Assembly (NCBI GenBank): GCA_005776475.1
Contig: SXPB01000231.1
Span: 1 to 50,102 of the forward strand
DNA length: 50,102 nucleotides
Direction: 5' to 3'
From: Planctomycetia bacterium
Lineage (GTDB): Bacteria; Planctomycetota; UBA1135; UBA2386
The position numbers were made by a program, and so were the translations under genes. A model generated the notes under the pieces. The model was not told the DNA's origin, did no database searches, and saw nothing but the letters and a program-made list of their open reading frames with translations. Below are positions 2,607-32,104 of this stretch, piece after piece (positions within the stretch are counted from its first letter, which is position 1; the number at the start of each line of letters is the position of its first letter).

Positions 2607-2834
2607 CGGCGTCCGTTCGAGGCCTCCAACCGCCAAGCCGAACGGCCCAGCCTGGGCCAAGTCCGCCCAGCCTACCGGTTCGTCGGCTGCAGTCCCACCA
2701 GTTGCTAGCCGGAGTTTGCCGGGGCGGCTGCTGGACTGGCTGCGCAAGAAACGCCGGGGCCGCACGTAGGGAGCACGGAACCTGACCCACACCGGCATCG
2801 GAAACGCCGTTCGTGGTCTCTTACTTCCTCACCG

Positions 2835-5408
2835 ATGGCACCCGAATCGACCGCGGAATTGCTCGCCGAGCTCGGCTGGTTGCGCACCCTGGCGCGCCGG
2901 CTGGTGCGCGACCCCGAGCACGCCGACGACCTCGTCCAGGACGCCTGTGGCCTCGCCCTGCGCCAGCCGGTGCCACCGCGCAGCTGGCGGGCCTGGCTCG
3001 CCACGGTCGTGCCGAACCTGGTGCACGGCCGCCGTCGACTCGACGGGGCGCGACGCCGACGGGAAGCCGCCGTCGCCAGCGCGGGCGGCGCCAGCGCCGA
3101 CACCGCCCACCTGGTCCAGCGCGCCGAACTGCAGCACACCCTCGCCGCCGCCGTGCTGCAGCTCGACGAGCCGTACCGCGCCACGTTGCTGCTGCGGTTC
3201 TTCGACGGCCTGCCGCCGCGTCGCATCGCGCAACGGCTGCAGGTTCCGGTCGCCACCGTGCACAGCCGCCTGCAGCGCGCGCTGCAGCAATTGCGCCAAC
3301 GACTCGATCGCGACTGCGACGGCCGCGAACGCTGGCTCGCCGCGTTCGCCCCCGGGCTCTGGCCCATCCCCACCGTGCCCACAACCCTCGGAATCCTCGC
3401 CATGCAAACGAAGTTGAAGATCCTCGCCGCGGCCGCCGTGGTGGCTTGTTCCGCCCCCTTGTGGTGGCCGGCTTCGTCGCCAGCCGACGATCTGCAGCCG
3501 ATCAGCAAGTCGAACGAACCGGCGCCAGCGGCGGCGCGCGGTGGCGCGGACGAATCGGACTCCGCGGGCATCGCCTCCGCCAACGCCGCGCGCACCGACC
3601 GCACCGGCACGGCTGCCACGCCACCACCGGCGAAGGACGACCTGGCGCTGCGCACCGTCACCGGACGCGTCTGCGACTGCCGCGGCACCCCGGTTGCCGA
3701 CGTTCCGATCGGGACCGCGGCGGCCAACGACAGCGCCGTGCGCAGCGATGCGGGTGGCAACTTCACGTTGGCCACGGCGGCCGACCACATCGACCTCGTT
3801 GCCCTCGGCGATCGCTTCGTCACCGTGCTCAGCGGCAACTGGACCACGACGGCCTCGATCCCACCGGTCGTCGTCGTCGCCGAAGCGATCGCCGTGGGCG
3901 GGCGCGTCGTCGATGCAAACGGCGCCCCGGTGCCCGGCGCGGGCGTGCTGATGCAATTGCCCGAGGACTTCGAGACCCTGTTCCCGCTGCCGCTCGATCG
4001 GTCCGGCCGGGAACGCCAGGCGACGCGGGCCGGCAGCGATGGCACCTTCGCGTTCGCCCGCCTGCCGCGCATCGAGGGCGCTTCGTTGTTGGCGACGGCG
4101 GATGCGTTCGCCCCCACCACGATCGCGCTGCCGATGGCGAACGATAGGAACCTCGCGATCGTGCTGCGCCGCTTCCACTTCGTCGATGGCGAACTGCGCG
4201 GCCGTGTCATCGATCCCGGCGGCGCCCCCGTGGCAGGAGCCCGCGTCGCGATGGGCGTCACTTCGGTTGCGAGCGCCAGTGACGGTACCTTTGCGATCAG
4301 CCTGGTGCGCGCCGGCTGGCCGACGGCGATCACGGCGGCCAAGGCCGGGCATCGGCCGGGGCGTCTCGAGATACCGGGCAATGGCGGCACTGCGCGCGAA
4401 CACTGGCCGGCCGAGATCGTGCTGCGGCTCGGACCGGCACCACGTTCGGTGCGTGGCCGCGTCAGCGACCAGAACGGGCGCGGCATCGCCAAGGCGGAGG
4501 TGTGGATCAGCGATCCGACGCCGCTCGGCATCGCCGCAGTGCTGCCGCTGCACACGGAGTACCTGATCGCCGGTGGCGAAGTGCCCCCGCAAGCGGCGCG
4601 CATGCGGGTGCCGGACGCGGACGAGCCGACGCGCGACGGCAACTTCATGGACCAGGCGAGCAGCAAGGTGACGCCGAGTGCGTGCTGGTTCTTCGTGACC
4701 ACCGACGACCAGGGCGCCTTCGAGCTCGGCGGCCTGCTCGACCGCAGCTACACGCTGAAGGCTCTCGATCCCAGCAGCGGCCTGTTCGGCGAAGTGACGA
4801 ACGTCGTCGGCGACACGTTCCGCGACATCACGATCGTGCGCGACGTGTGGCCGGTGCTGCGCGGCCGCATCGTGTCGCTGCGCGGTGAGCCGCTGGCCGG
4901 CGTGCGCGTGCAACAGCATGTGGTCGCGTTCAAGAACCGGGCCCGGGTGCCGGGCGGCGAGTTCGAAGGCACGGCGCTGCGCGAAGGAGCGACGGCGACC
5001 ACCGGCGCCGACGGCACGTTCGAGCTGCGCGACATCGGGCGCCAGCACGTTGCGTTCGCACTGTCTGGCGACACGATCCTGCCCACCAGCAAGCTGGGCA
5101 AGGACATCGCCGATCCCCTGCAGAGCACGTGGGTGGCGGAGGCGCGCTGCCACGTCGATGTCACGCTGGCCAATCCCGACGAAGGCGACGAAGTCGCCTG
5201 CTTCGATGCCGAGGGCAAGCAGCTCGACATCGCGGTGCTGCGGCGCAACAGCAACTCGTTCTTGACTGAACTCAAACTGCACGCCGGGCGCAGCGGCCTG
5301 TTCGTCGTCGGCGAACGCGCCGCGAAGCTGGTGCTGCTGCGCGGCGGGCAACCGGTGCGCACGATCCCGTTCACGCCGGATCCGAAGCAGGCGACGACGC
5401 TGCAGTGA
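2835..5408 (+). CDS. ECF-type RNA polymerase sigma factor fused to a TM segment and carboxypeptidase regulatory-like (CarboxypepD_reg) repeats
   Basis: N-term RLVRDPEHADDLVQDACGLAL... and LPPRRIAQRLQVPVATVHSRLQRALQQLRQRL (sigma-70 regions 2 and 4); hydrophobic MQTKLKILAAAAVVACSAPLWW; then repeats such as GRVVDANGAPVPGAGV, GRVIDPGGAPVAGARV, GRIVSLRGEPLAGVRV. Confidence 0.85.
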   Translation: MAPESTAELLAELGWLRTLARRLVRDPEHADDLVQDACGLALRQPVPPRSWRAWLATVVPNLVHGRRRLDGARRRREAAVASAGGASADTAHLVQRAELQHTLAAAVLQLDEPYRATLLLRFFDGLPPRRIAQRLQVPVATVHSRLQRALQQLRQRLDRDCDGRERWLAAFAPGLWPIPTVPTTLGILAMQTKLKILAAAAVVACSAPLWWPASSPADDLQPISKSNEPAPAAARGGADESDSAGIASANAARTDRTGTAATPPPAKDDLALRTVTGRVCDCRGTPVADVPIGTAAANDSAVRSDAGGNFTLATAADHIDLVALGDRFVTVLSGNWTTTASIPPVVVVAEAIAVGGRVVDANGAPVPGAGVLMQLPEDFETLFPLPLDRSGRERQATRAGSDGTFAFARLPRIEGASLLATADAFAPTTIALPMANDRNLAIVLRRFHFVDGELRGRVIDPGGAPVAGARVAMGVTSVASASDGTFAISLVRAGWPTAITAAKAGHRPGRLEIPGNGGTAREHWPAEIVLRLGPAPRSVRGRVSDQNGRGIAKAEVWISDPTPLGIAAVLPLHTEYLIAGGEVPPQAARMRVPDADEPTRDGNFMDQASSKVTPSACWFFVTTDDQGAFELGGLLDRSYTLKALDPSSGLFGEVTNVVGDTFRDITIVRDVWPVLRGRIVSLRGEPLAGVRVQQHVVAFKNRARVPGGEFEGTALREGATATTGADGTFELRDIGRQHVAFALSGDTILPTSKLGKDIADPLQSTWVAEARCHVDVTLANPDEGDEVACFDAEGKQLDIAVLRRNSNSFLTELKLHAGRSGLFVVGERAAKLVLLRGGQPVRTIPFTPDPKQATTLQ

Positions 5409-26419: not shown

Positions 26420-26860
26420 TCAGAAGACCTGGATCGTCGCGGTGCCGGCGATCGGATCGACGCTGATGCGGATCAGGTAGCCCAGCTGCGTCGCATCGGC
26501 GATCGTGATGTAAGCAGTCTTCGTCGACATCGTGCCGAGCATCTGCAACAGGCTCGCCGACACCCGAACCACTCGACCCTGCACCTGCAGAGCGACCGGC
26601 GATCCAGACACCTGGTCGACGAACGTCGCACTGACGCTGCCGAGGTCGGTGTGGACCTCCATCAGGACGTCCTGCGACAGTCCCACCGTGCGCACATCGC
26701 GCGGCGCCGCGGCGCCGCCGTTCATGGTGAGGAAGTTGGCGCGCGGCAGAATCCAGATGCCGGTGCCGCCACCGTTCTCACCACCCTCGCCACCCAACAC
26801 CGGCAACGCCATGCAGATCGCCAAGGCGAACGCGACGAGCCAACGAAGGGTGTTCTTCAT
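26420..26860 (-). CDS. small secreted protein of unknown function
   Basis: MKNTLRWLVAFALAICMALPVLGGEGGENGGGTGIWILPRANFL...; clear signal peptide. Confidence 0.7.
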   Translation of the reverse strand: MKNTLRWLVAFALAICMALPVLGGEGGENGGGTGIWILPRANFLTMNGGAAAPRDVRTVGLSQDVLMEVHTDLGSVSATFVDQVSGSPVALQVQGRVVRVSASLLQMLGTMSTKTAYITIADATQLGYLIRISVDPIAGTATIQVF

Positions 26861-26906
26861 GGGATGGGATGGAGAGAGGACCGCGGGAGTCTACTTCACA
26901 GCCGCC

Positions 26907-26932
26907 AAAACGCCAGGGGAGAGGCCCCGGCG
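26907..26932 (-). terminator. candidate intrinsic terminator/attenuator between the zf-TPR gene and the small secreted protein gene
   Basis: On the minus strand CGCCGGGGCCTCTCCCCTGGCGTTTT: 8-bp GC stem (one bulged base) followed by TTTT, about 37 nt after the TPR gene stop. Confidence 0.5.
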
Positions 26933-26969
26933 ACTGCACGTGTATCTCGGCAACCGGGCGAGGCAACCA

Positions 26970-28007
26970 TCAGCCGACTTCGGCCAATTGGGGAAAAAGG
27001 GAGGTCAGGGCCTGCGACAGGGGCCGGGCGTCCGGGTGGTTGCGGACCAGGTGCAGGAAGTGGCTGCGGCGGGCGAGCTCGCGCCCGACCAGATTGCGTT
27101 TGTGCGGAAGCTCCGAATGGAGCCGGGTGAACCAGTGCAAACTGTCCTGGAACTGGCCCTTGAGACCGTAGGCGATGGCCAGGTTGAAGAAGGCCGTGCT
27201 CATGCGTGGCTGCTCCCCCATGACCCCCGACTCGACCAGTTGCTGGAGCAGGCGAACGGCGCCGTCCCAGTCCCCTTCGTCGAGGTGGATGTTACCGAGG
27301 TTCGACAACGCATAGCCCCGCATCAGGCGGTCGTCGCTGTTTTCGAGCACGTGCAGGAACTGCTTCCGGGCGAGGGCGCGCTGGCCGCGCACGTGATGCA
27401 CGAGACCCAGGTAGATCCGGGATTCGTGCAGGGTGGGCTCGAGACTCACGCATTCCGACAGCAGCCGTTGGCCGCGCGCGAGGCTCTCTTCGGGGGTGCG
27501 CAATTTGCCGTCGAACAGTTCCTTGGCGACGACCCAGGCCGCTTCAGGCCCTGGATTGCCCGAGCGCGCCACTTCGTCGAGCAGGTTGCGCCCCTTCATC
27601 GCCATGTCGGGCACCGGCACCGGCTCCTTGGCGACTTCGCGTGAGAAGTCGGCGGACAGGCCCATCAGGACAAAGCCGCGCCCCAACTCGTAGAGCACAC
27701 GCGCCAGCTTCTTCCGATTCGCCGTCAACTGGCCGCGCAGCTGGGCGAGCACCGTCGGCTCGGGGGCGGTCGAATCCGCGTCCGCCGTGCCCATCGCCAC
27801 GGCGAGCTGCTTGTGCATTCGCACCTGCGAACGAATGCCGTCGAGAAACTCGCGGCAGTGTCCGCACAGGTCCGAGTGGACCATCACGCGCCGAACGCCG
27901 GCCGGATCGAGTTCCCCATCGAGCATCGCCGACAGATCCACCTGGATCTGCAAGCATGGGTCGTAACCGCGATCCGCAGAGGCCGGGGGCAACATGACGG
28001 CCACCAC
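26970..28007 (-). CDS. putative zinc-finger (anti-sigma-like) protein with TPR repeats
   Basis: N-term LSAMLDGELDPAGVRRVMVHSDLCGHCREFLDG (H-x3-C-x2-C zinc-finger anti-sigma signature) followed by TPR-like ...ALSNLGNIHLDEGDWDGAVRLLQQL...; GTG start overlaps the sigma stop (TAGTG). Confidence 0.75.
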   Translation of the reverse strand: MVAVMLPPASADRGYDPCLQIQVDLSAMLDGELDPAGVRRVMVHSDLCGHCREFLDGIRSQVRMHKQLAVAMGTADADSTAPEPTVLAQLRGQLTANRKKLARVLYELGRGFVLMGLSADFSREVAKEPVPVPDMAMKGRNLLDEVARSGNPGPEAAWVVAKELFDGKLRTPEESLARGQRLLSECVSLEPTLHESRIYLGLVHHVRGQRALARKQFLHVLENSDDRLMRGYALSNLGNIHLDEGDWDGAVRLLQQLVESGVMGEQPRMSTAFFNLAIAYGLKGQFQDSLHWFTRLHSELPHKRNLVGRELARRSHFLHLVRNHPDARPLSQALTSLFPQLAEVG

Positions 28008-28936
28008 TAGACGGTAGTGGTTCCCTGGTCACGCACTTGCCGCCGCGAACCGACACATCCGCCCAAAATGCGACGATCGCCCCGGGCCCTTGTGGCCGGC
28101 CCCGAAATGCCGCGGGCGCATTTCGCCGGCCCGAGTCCGGCCTTGGCTTCGGCAGCCAGCGAGCTCGGCTGGTCAAACAGGGCGAGCGACGTTTCCATGC
28201 CGCGGAAGATCTTTCGGCGACCCCGGAAGATGACCATCTTCAGGTTCTCCAGGCGGATCTCGAGCGCTGCCGCGGCATCGCGGTACGAGACGCCCTCGAC
28301 TTCAACCATCGTCAGCGCGCGCTGCTCCTTCGGCGACAAGCGGCCGAAGTGCAGCAGGTACAGCTGCAGCCACATCAAGTACGCGTGGTTGACGGCGGTG
28401 GCACTCTCTGCCTCCGAGGCCGCGCGGTCGGGCGACCGCACGTGGGTGTCCACCGGCTGCAGTACCTCTTCGTCCATTTCGAGGAAGCGCGCGAGGCGCG
28501 ACTGCCCCTTCAGGAACTTCAGCAGCGTGTTGCGGGCGATGCGGTGCCCCCAGCCGCGAAACGCATCCGCCTTGTCGGCATGGAACCGGTGCGGGTAGCG
28601 ATAGATGTTGAGGAACACCTCTTGCACGACGTCTTGCGCATCGACGTGGTGGTACGAACGGCGCAGTCCACTCTGGATCGCCTGCAGGAACGAACCGCGG
28701 TTGAGTTCGAACAGCAGCGCGAACACTGCGGAATCGCCGGTGTCCTTGAAGACATCCATCAGGCTGGTGCTGACCCAGTCCTGGTAGTCCTGCTCCGATC
28801 CGAACTCGACGCCATCGCGCGGCGGCTTGTGGTCGGCGAGCCGTTGCAGCGACGCCGCGCCCGTGCCTTCCCACAGTTCGAGCAGCCGGCGCCGGAGCGT
28901 CGGGGCATCGAGGTACATGTGAGCTGCGTGCAACAT
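28007..28936 (-). CDS. ECF-like RNA polymerase sigma factor with long N-terminal and low-complexity C-terminal extensions
   Basis: HHVDAQDVVQEVFLNIYRYPHRFHADKADAFRGWGHRIARNTLLKFLK and LSPKEQRALTMVEVEGVSYRDAAAALEIRLENLKMVIFRGRRKI. Confidence 0.82.
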   Translation of the reverse strand: MLHAAHMYLDAPTLRRRLLELWEGTGAASLQRLADHKPPRDGVEFGSEQDYQDWVSTSLMDVFKDTGDSAVFALLFELNRGSFLQAIQSGLRRSYHHVDAQDVVQEVFLNIYRYPHRFHADKADAFRGWGHRIARNTLLKFLKGQSRLARFLEMDEEVLQPVDTHVRSPDRAASEAESATAVNHAYLMWLQLYLLHFGRLSPKEQRALTMVEVEGVSYRDAAAALEIRLENLKMVIFRGRRKIFRGMETSLALFDQPSSLAAEAKAGLGPAKCARGISGPATRARGDRRILGGCVGSRRQVRDQGTTTV

Positions 28937-28997
28937 GGCAAGACGGCGGGGGGACCAGTCGCTCCACGGACCGGTGGTTCACCGGTCATCTTGCCAT
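28935..28997 (-). promoter_or_regulatory. nested inverted repeats over the sigma gene 5' UTR/start codon
   Basis: Outer arms ATGGCAAGA (28935-28943) and TCTTGCCAT (28989-28997) are exact reverse complements; inner dyad GACCGGTG-GTT-CACCGGTC at 28969-28987. Confidence 0.5.
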
Positions 28998-29086
28998 AGC
29001 CGAGTGTGTCTTGGAAGTAACAGAGAAGGATCGGTGGTAACCGAAATTTCTCCCCTCTGCGCCCCCCGGCCCCTACGCCCGAGGCA

Positions 29087-29821
29087 CTACGACGCGGTCG
29101 GCAGCAAAATCACCATGCCGAGCCCGCCCGGACCCATCGCATCGGGCCGCACGATCGCTCCGATCTCCTGGACCGCACGGCGGAAGCGCTCGATCGACTG
29201 ACCATCCACCTGGTCGGCAGGCTCGCCCACCCCACGCAGCCAGATCTGCACGCCGCCTTCGGTGGCAGCGATTTCGACGTGGCGCGCACCGATGCCTTGG
29301 GCGCGCTCCGCGAGCAGGTCGAGGCCGTGCCGGATGGCTTCCGCGAGGTTTGGAGCCGAACCCCACCAGGCGGGCGCCGAGCCCTGCACGAACACCGGCT
29401 GTTCCTGTGTCTGCCGCTGCCGGGCCACCATCGTGACCACGTCGGCGACGTCGACCGGCTCGGCGCCGGATGCAGCGAGGCGACCCTCGCGCACGGCGTC
29501 CTGCTGGACGGTGTCGCACCAGTCGAGCACGGCGAGCACTTCGCGCACCGAGCCCTTGAGCTGGGCGCGCGAATCCTCGGCGATGGCCTGGTCCAGCTTG
29601 TGCAGCCGTTGCCGCAGTTCTTCGGCGAACATCTGCTGGCTCTCGGCCAAGGCCAGGAAGCGGTCACCGAGCACGCGCGCCACATCGCTGCCGCGGCGCA
29701 AGTTGCTGCCGACATCGCGCTGGCTCGCGACGACGACCACTTCCCCCACCTTCGGTGGCGGCACCGGTAGCACATACTCGGACGACTCGGGAACGGCAAC
29801 GCCGGGTTGGTTCAGGGACAT
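29087..29821 (-). CDS. degenerate histidine-kinase-like/HATPase-like protein
   Basis: Coiled-coil-like FAEELRQRLHKLDQAIAEDSRAQLKGSVREVLAVLDW, then PNLAEAIRHGLDLLAERA...ARHVEIAATEGGVQIWLRG...GPGGLGMVILLP in HATPase-like order. Confidence 0.5.
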   Translation of the reverse strand: MSLNQPGVAVPESSEYVLPVPPPKVGEVVVVASQRDVGSNLRRGSDVARVLGDRFLALAESQQMFAEELRQRLHKLDQAIAEDSRAQLKGSVREVLAVLDWCDTVQQDAVREGRLAASGAEPVDVADVVTMVARQRQTQEQPVFVQGSAPAWWGSAPNLAEAIRHGLDLLAERAQGIGARHVEIAATEGGVQIWLRGVGEPADQVDGQSIERFRRAVQEIGAIVRPDAMGPGGLGMVILLPTAS

Positions 29822-31882: not shown

Positions 31883-32104
31883 GTGACCAACGCACGCAAC
31901 ACGACGAACCTCTCCACGATGGGCAACACCGAGTTCTACAACGAGTCGAAGTGGTGCGATGGCTGCAAGGGCTACGTGCGCTTCCTGATGAGTGTGAACC
32001 ACAGCTTCTGCGTGCAGTGCGGTGGCCGCGTCCGCCTCTTCAACCGCGACGACAGCTCGCGCTTCACCGAGACGGTGCAGCGCCACAAGTGGCAGGCCTC
32101 CTGA
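31883..32104 (+). CDS. small zinc-ribbon protein, 73 aa
   Basis: WCDGCKGYVRFLMSVNHSFCVQCGGRVRLF: two CxxC pairs. Confidence 0.7.
   Translation: MTNARNTTNLSTMGNTEFYNESKWCDGCKGYVRFLMSVNHSFCVQCGGRVRLFNRDDSSRFTETVQRHKWQAS

Follow-up and report, generated by a model that had tools for sequence, protein, structure and literature searches.

A three-gene unit that appears ancient, judged by its conservation across at least eleven families, encodes an ECF-type sigma factor (gene B), a candidate soluble anti-sigma factor with a zinc domain and TPRs (gene C) and a small exported protein of no known family (gene D). In one clade, a fourth gene (A), predicted to encode a pseudo-histidine kinase, lies directly upstream of B. 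The locus analysed is on contig C213 of a draft genome (5.2 Mb, 75.65% complete), and all four open reading frames are present on the minus strand of the window (the whole stretch of DNA analysed, 50,102 nucleotides) at the positions listed in Table 1. A sequence-only reading of the window had described a degenerate HATPase protein, an ECF sigma factor, a zinc-finger/TPR protein acting as a possible anti-sigma factor and a secreted protein of unrecognised family, and each of these descriptions is supported. Its proposal that the four genes form one signalling set stands with respect to genes, families and neighbourhood, but the conserved core is the sigma factor, the anti-sigma factor and the secreted protein, and A is a later insertion. 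No description of the locus was found in the open-licence literature searched. The genomes compared are drafts, mostly of uncultured organisms, and the gene calls are home-made with uncertain starts.

Table 1. Positions in the window of the four genes and of features within and between them
Feature	Position	Strand	Basis or remarks
Gene A: predicted pseudo-histidine kinase, 244 aa	29087..29821	(-)	AlphaFold2, Foldseek, profile match to own-genome kinases
A residues 37-117: DHp-like two-helix hairpin without acceptor His	29471..29713	(-)	Glu68, Trp101 invariant
A residues 121-240: CA/HATPase-like domain	29102..29461	(-)	without N-box Asn, G1 Asp, F and G2 boxes, ATP lid
Promoter-like element upstream of B: GTTACTTCC-N11-GGCTATGGCAAGATG	28987..29021	(-)	conserved in f1, constant gap
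Gene B: ECF-type sigma factor, 309 aa	28007..28936	(-)	sigma2 near 28496-28654, sigma4 near 28208-28342
TAGTG, overlap of B stop and C start	28005..28009	(-)	sequence; overlaps in many other order genomes
Gene C: candidate soluble anti-sigma factor, 345 aa, zinc domain and TPR	26970..28007	(-)	
C residues 18-52: zf-HC2-type domain	27852..27956	(-)	ligands C18, H44, C48, C51, invariant or nearly so
C residues 232-295: best-scoring TPR stretch	27123..27314	(-)	TPR_12 E 1.5e-12
TAGACT, possible -10 box of D's own promoter	26888..26893	(-)	TAnA[CG]T counts in family genomes
Gene D: small exported protein, 146 aa, beta-sandwich model, no known family	26420..26860	(-)	
D residues 34-39, GIWILP, motif near mature N-terminus	26744..26761	(-)	G34, L38, P39 invariant

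Conservation of the B-C-D unit

With each protein as a single query against 61 genomes, A was detected in 31, B in all 61, C in 59 and D in 25, at neighbouring places and in constant order, and about 30 related genomes repeat the same genes, order and orientation, which is more than chance. In loci of family f1, the strands are identical and the block is bounded by the same flanks (queG-like / A B C D / GDPD-like, flank names being read from translations); the neighbourhood, on whose conservation the sequence-only reading had been staked, is thus kept across relatives. A profile of C searched over 392 genomes of the phylum matched 41/41 sampled genomes of the order as well as families f27, f47 and f71, where the best matches range from E 1e-31 to 2e-71, and B adjoins C in all 12 loci fetched from these families. 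An open reading frame with a strong hydrophobic leader lies directly after C in 68 of 70 loci from the order and three sister families. The frames of B and C overlap or abut, as do those of C and D in several other genomes. At TAGTG, the predicted overlap is exact, the stop codon of B (TAG, 28009-28007) and the start codon of C (GTG, 28007-28005) having one base in common, and a 4-nt overlap takes its place in many genomes of the order.

The arrangement could reflect mere neighbourhood, with a whole chromosomal region conserved and A or D functionally unlinked to B and C, and the flanking queG-like and GDPD-like genes are indeed also conserved within the family. This is improbable, as the flank changes in the sister families, where a UvrD-like helicase gene follows, yet B-C-D is kept; D diverges strongly, yet its position, leader and motif are retained; and strong matches to A never occur away from B.

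Beyond the block, a small zinc-ribbon-like protein with two CxxC pairs is encoded at 31883-32104 (+) of the window, and elsewhere in the order, e.g. in G037 and G058, a relative is found close to the queG-like gene.

Sigma factor B and its promoter-like element

B possesses Sigma70_r2 (E 2.2e-11) and Sigma70_r4_2 (E 8e-8), both above the Pfam cut-off, and matches TIGR02937 above cut-off; no sigma3 was matched in Pfam or NCBIfam searches, and sigma2 and sigma4 without sigma3 constitute the ECF arrangement. It also has a conserved N-terminal extension. Pfam matched no TPR in B, setting it apart from ECF42, and the TPRs sit in C. The same draft genome (G000) contains 80 Sigma70_r2 matches and 43 HisKA matches, and many of the other Sigma70_r2 matches fall in open frames of 700-1,130 codons. 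One 899-codon frame in the window, at 2709-5405 (+), encodes an ECF-type sigma factor (Sigma70_r2 at 2871-3032) apparently fused via a hydrophobic segment to a long, repeat-rich, carboxypeptidase-regulatory-like part.

Upstream of B, the boxes of GTTACTTCC-N11-GGCTATGGCAAGATG recur far above shuffles, and the pair with a gap of 11 is found in 22/28 scored family loci. The boxes are hexamer-like and non-sigma70-like, have a spacing of 17 nt and lie about 45-54 nt upstream of B, and GTTACTT shares five of seven bases with the ECF/RpoE -35 box GGAACTT (box from PMC8103513). The specificity of the element was judged by a whole-genome backwards control in 34 family genomes. Its 14-base core is exact in 16 of these 34 whole genomes, each time before B and nowhere else, which suggests, as the simplest reading, that B may regulate itself via its own element. 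A wider regulon was rejected, with five one-mismatch sites away from B versus five in the backwards control over the 34 genomes. GTTAC boxes were seen by eye at similar places before B in f3, f4 and most of f5, and some f1 genomes are without the element, e.g. G001, G006 and G022.

Alternatively, the GTTAC element may be bound by a different regulator or serve as promoter for a different sigma factor, in which case B would not be self-regulating and would have its targets elsewhere. With 24 conserved bases, the element extends beyond its -35 and -10 boxes, which gives this alternative some weight, although it remains doubtful in view of the hexamer-like boxes with their spacing and position before B, the retention of GTTAC boxes before B in f3, f4 and f5, and the resemblance to the ECF -35 box.

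Candidate anti-sigma factor C

The zf-HC2 domain is matched by 21 of 24 members of C, and the copy at this locus (P0003) scores 20.6 bits against a cut-off of 22.2, just below. An Hx3Cx2C motif lies in the N-terminal helical domain, with H44, C48, C51 and C18 each conserved at 90% or more and H44 not present in every member. C is encoded beside its sigma factor, as is characteristic of class I zinc anti-sigma factors, and no transmembrane segment was noticed in it by eye. C is likely to be a soluble zinc-type anti-sigma factor with TPRs, and would control B. In its Hx3Cx2C motif, in the position of its gene beside the sigma gene and in having no membrane segment seen, C resembles the ASDI-type soluble zinc class I anti-sigma factors RsrA and ChrR (PMC7406223). 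It differs from them in that it carries TPRs, which are not mentioned in the text on ASDI anti-sigma factors (PMC7406223), and in that an exported protein belongs to the unit.

Exported protein D

As had been described from the sequence, D is small, carries an export leader (a signal peptide judged by eye) and is unlike known families: it gave no Pfam match, no NCBIfam match above cut-off and no PDB sequence match. It is modelled as a beta-sandwich (pLDDT 90) with no significant fold match in the PDB (best E 0.02). A CBM46-like identity was considered and is not claimed, the TM-score being 0.58 on target but the E-value 0.05. The mature protein starts with GGENGGGTG[VI]W[IV]LPR in most of f1, GDNPVVGSLP in f5, GDPDDDWGLP in f47 and GGGGDEGIDILP in f71. 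Leader and loose motif together are present in 55/58 loci of the order versus 45/947 other ORF ends; these counts rest on the leader and the loose motif, the strict motif, written after viewing the sequences, being left out. A sigma70-like -10 box (TAnA[CG]T) precedes D in eight of the 20 family genomes in which a long gap separates C from D, where 0.7 are expected, so that D may be made without B there.

Fold and catalytic residues of A

The AlphaFold2 model of A, built from 31 sequences (pLDDT 86, pTM 0.74), consists of a two-helix hairpin at residues 37-79 and 85-117 followed by the strand-helix order of a CA domain, and is preceded by a low-confidence N-terminal tail of 36 residues with a YVLPxPP-like motif in most of f1. 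Foldseek matched the model to 218 PDB entries at E 0.001 or better, and the matches listed are histidine kinases, including HK853 (E 4e-9) and DivL (4q20, E 1.8e-7). Over the whole chain, TM-scores against kinases reach only about 0.4 and the rmsd is high, which would be expected were the two domains of A set at a different angle. A profile comparison of the A family with 14 kinases of its own genome gave E 3e-9, and the kinase-like layout read from the sequence was accordingly recovered, by model and by profile, as a DHp and CA fold. A single Pfam hint of GGDEF (E 0.096) was not found in the 30 relatives of A and was rejected.

The absences that had been read in A also hold across the family: His reaches at most 4 of 31 sequences in any column of the hairpin, Asn occurs in at most 1/31 within the N-box helix, and DxGxG is missing, the G1 Asp being gone. 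GPGGLGMVILLP, however, had been cited as ATPase-like and is not the ATP-binding box; its counterpart in ordinary kinases is the last strand of the CA domain ('GSTFTLRLP'), and the profile alignment rules it out as a G2 box (GTGLGL). The same alignment with own-genome kinases shows the F-box, G2 box and ATP lid of A to be deleted. The kinase H-box SHE[LI]RTPL aligns with EELRQRL of A, in which Glu68 is invariant and His is absent; this alignment needs a four-residue gap in the helix, and the exact position of the His is therefore uncertain. Given the lack of a conserved hairpin His, N-box Asn and G1 Asp and the deletion of the F-box, G2 box and lid, A is strongly predicted to be inactive as a kinase or phosphotransferase, and an active enzyme of either kind was rejected on conserved residues. 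A is thus, on its modelled fold and aligned residues, a pseudo-histidine kinase in which the DHp and CA fold is kept and the catalytic residues are lost throughout the family. That A is instead an atypical enzyme or phosphotransferase, binding nucleotide or phosphate in an unusual way, is very improbable: Glu68, which is invariant and follows the position of the acceptor His, and the invariant or near-invariant W101, R173, G178 and R214 would fit such an enzyme, but no His is conserved anywhere and the ATP-binding box and lid are absent.

The hairpin and the absent ATP boxes separate A from anti-sigma kinases of the RsbW/SpoIIAB type. ChpT/Spo0B-type phosphotransferases combine a DHp hairpin with a degenerate CA domain and keep the phospho-acceptor His. 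A resembles them in its hairpin and degenerate CA domain but, unlike them, has no conserved His in the hairpin. Caulobacter DivL likewise has a DHp and CA fold without the acceptor His (PMC4211667), and is the nearest known pseudo-histidine kinase to A by fold and His loss, not by architecture. In contrast to DivL, A is soluble and short and has lost the lid, and it is an ECF sigma factor, not CckA/DivK, to which it is linked; Pfam matched no PAS domain in A, and with the lid deleted A does not qualify as a DivL orthologue. A could nevertheless be a DivL-like sensor whose dead DHp/CA core binds a phosphorylated receiver encoded elsewhere and relays that receiver's state, either to the sigma circuit or into a different pathway. 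The shared fold and the fact that DivL, also without the His, senses DivK~P (PMC4211667) speak for such a role, which is nonetheless unlikely, as no response regulator was detected by Pfam among the four genes, A lacks a sensor domain as well as the lid that DivL keeps, and the linkage is to a sigma gene and not to a receiver gene.

Distribution and history of A

The profile of A was searched over 154 genomes of the order, with E 1e-50 or better taken as a strong match. The strong matches (n = 32) come from 29/34 genomes of family f1 and three of family f6, and all 32 adjoin B. Seven weak matches lie away from B (E 3e-8 to 9e-4). Of these, three were read: one is a further degenerate protein resembling kinases, one looks like a transporter and has a domain that is similar in part, and one is yet another degenerate domain. 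L196 (G026:C272:655-1029) and L198 (G074:C102:8227-8514) are degenerate kinase-like domains unlinked to the A-B-C-D locus, and L197 (G013:C242) is a transporter-like membrane protein whose C-terminal part weakly resembles the ATPase-like domain of A; stripped histidine-kinase folds may be common in the order.

Between the queG-like gene and B there are mostly 80-470 nt in loci without A and mostly 970-1,390 nt in loci with A. Overlooked copies of A in other families were rejected as an explanation, the gap after the queG-like gene being mostly too short and the profile having found none in the 154 genomes. On a tree of B and C, f1 and f6 share one clade with f3, and the presence of A requires at least five changes. 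This distribution fits one gain followed by several losses, e.g. in the G013/G019/G021 clade, an order of events that is itself tentative. By its distribution, A appears as a later, clade-specific addition between the queG-like gene and B, and its absence from most families with B-C-D indicates that it is not needed for the core.

A proposed ECF sigma circuit

We consider it about evenly balanced whether these genes form a conserved ECF sigma circuit in which C holds B, B drives its own promoter, D is the output and A tunes the whole. C would keep B inactive in the cytoplasm until displaced via its TPR surface or zinc site, releasing B onto its own GTTAC-type promoter. Active B would then yield more B and C, and more D at least where D is coupled to C, with D as the exported output. 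A, added upstream in one clade, would bind B or C and so tune the circuit as an adaptor without catalytic activity, probably in dimeric form. Control of B by C and A, and the role of D as output, are what we infer from this arrangement, and it is from strict linkage that A is suggested to act on B.

The circuit is favoured by the recurrence of B-C-D in 68/70 loci and at least 11 families, the conserved zinc ligands of C and the overlapping or abutting frames; by the adjacency of every strong A match to B, with the fold of A kept and its catalysis lost; and by an element before B that is single-copy per genome and non-sigma70-like. Counted against it are the absence of A from most B-C-D families, the separate -10 box of D, the f1 genomes without the element and the variability of H44. 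In a more specific version, which we think distinctly unlikely, B is essentially private to its own promoter, D is the output, and the TPR groove of C reads the conserved N-terminal G-x-x-x-L-P of D before export, so that export sets sigma activity; A of the one clade, with Y-V-L-P in its tail, would compete for or tune that site.

Comparison with known modes of ECF control

Five mechanisms of ECF control have been listed, soluble anti-sigma factors included and none with a pseudo-histidine kinase (PMC8103513), and both TPRs fused to the sigma factor (ECF42) and partner switching with an active kinase have been described (PMC8999054). The locus resembles ECF42 in that an ECF sigma factor is controlled through TPRs (PMC8999054, PMC8103513), a control that is putative here, but the TPRs lie on a separate protein with an anti-sigma domain and are not fused to the sigma factor. 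It resembles the alphaproteobacterial EcfG-NepR-PhyR system in combining an ECF sigma factor, a soluble anti-sigma factor and a histidine-kinase-type protein (PMC8999054), but the sigma-mimic response regulator is absent and the kinase-like protein is predicted to be catalytically dead. The pairing of an ECF sigma factor with a soluble zinc anti-sigma factor is known; here it comes with TPRs on the anti-sigma factor, a new secreted family (D) and, in one clade, the unusual pseudokinase A.

Significance

Planctomycetota possess very many ECF sigma factors, few of which are understood, and the locus would provide a deeply conserved circuit with defined parts, offering a once-per-genome promoter element and, in D, an exported partner that is conserved and belongs to no known family. 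A would be a naturally occurring histidine-kinase fold that has been stripped of catalysis and is tied to a sigma factor instead of a phosphorelay, so that the control of sigma factors by dead kinase folds becomes directly testable.
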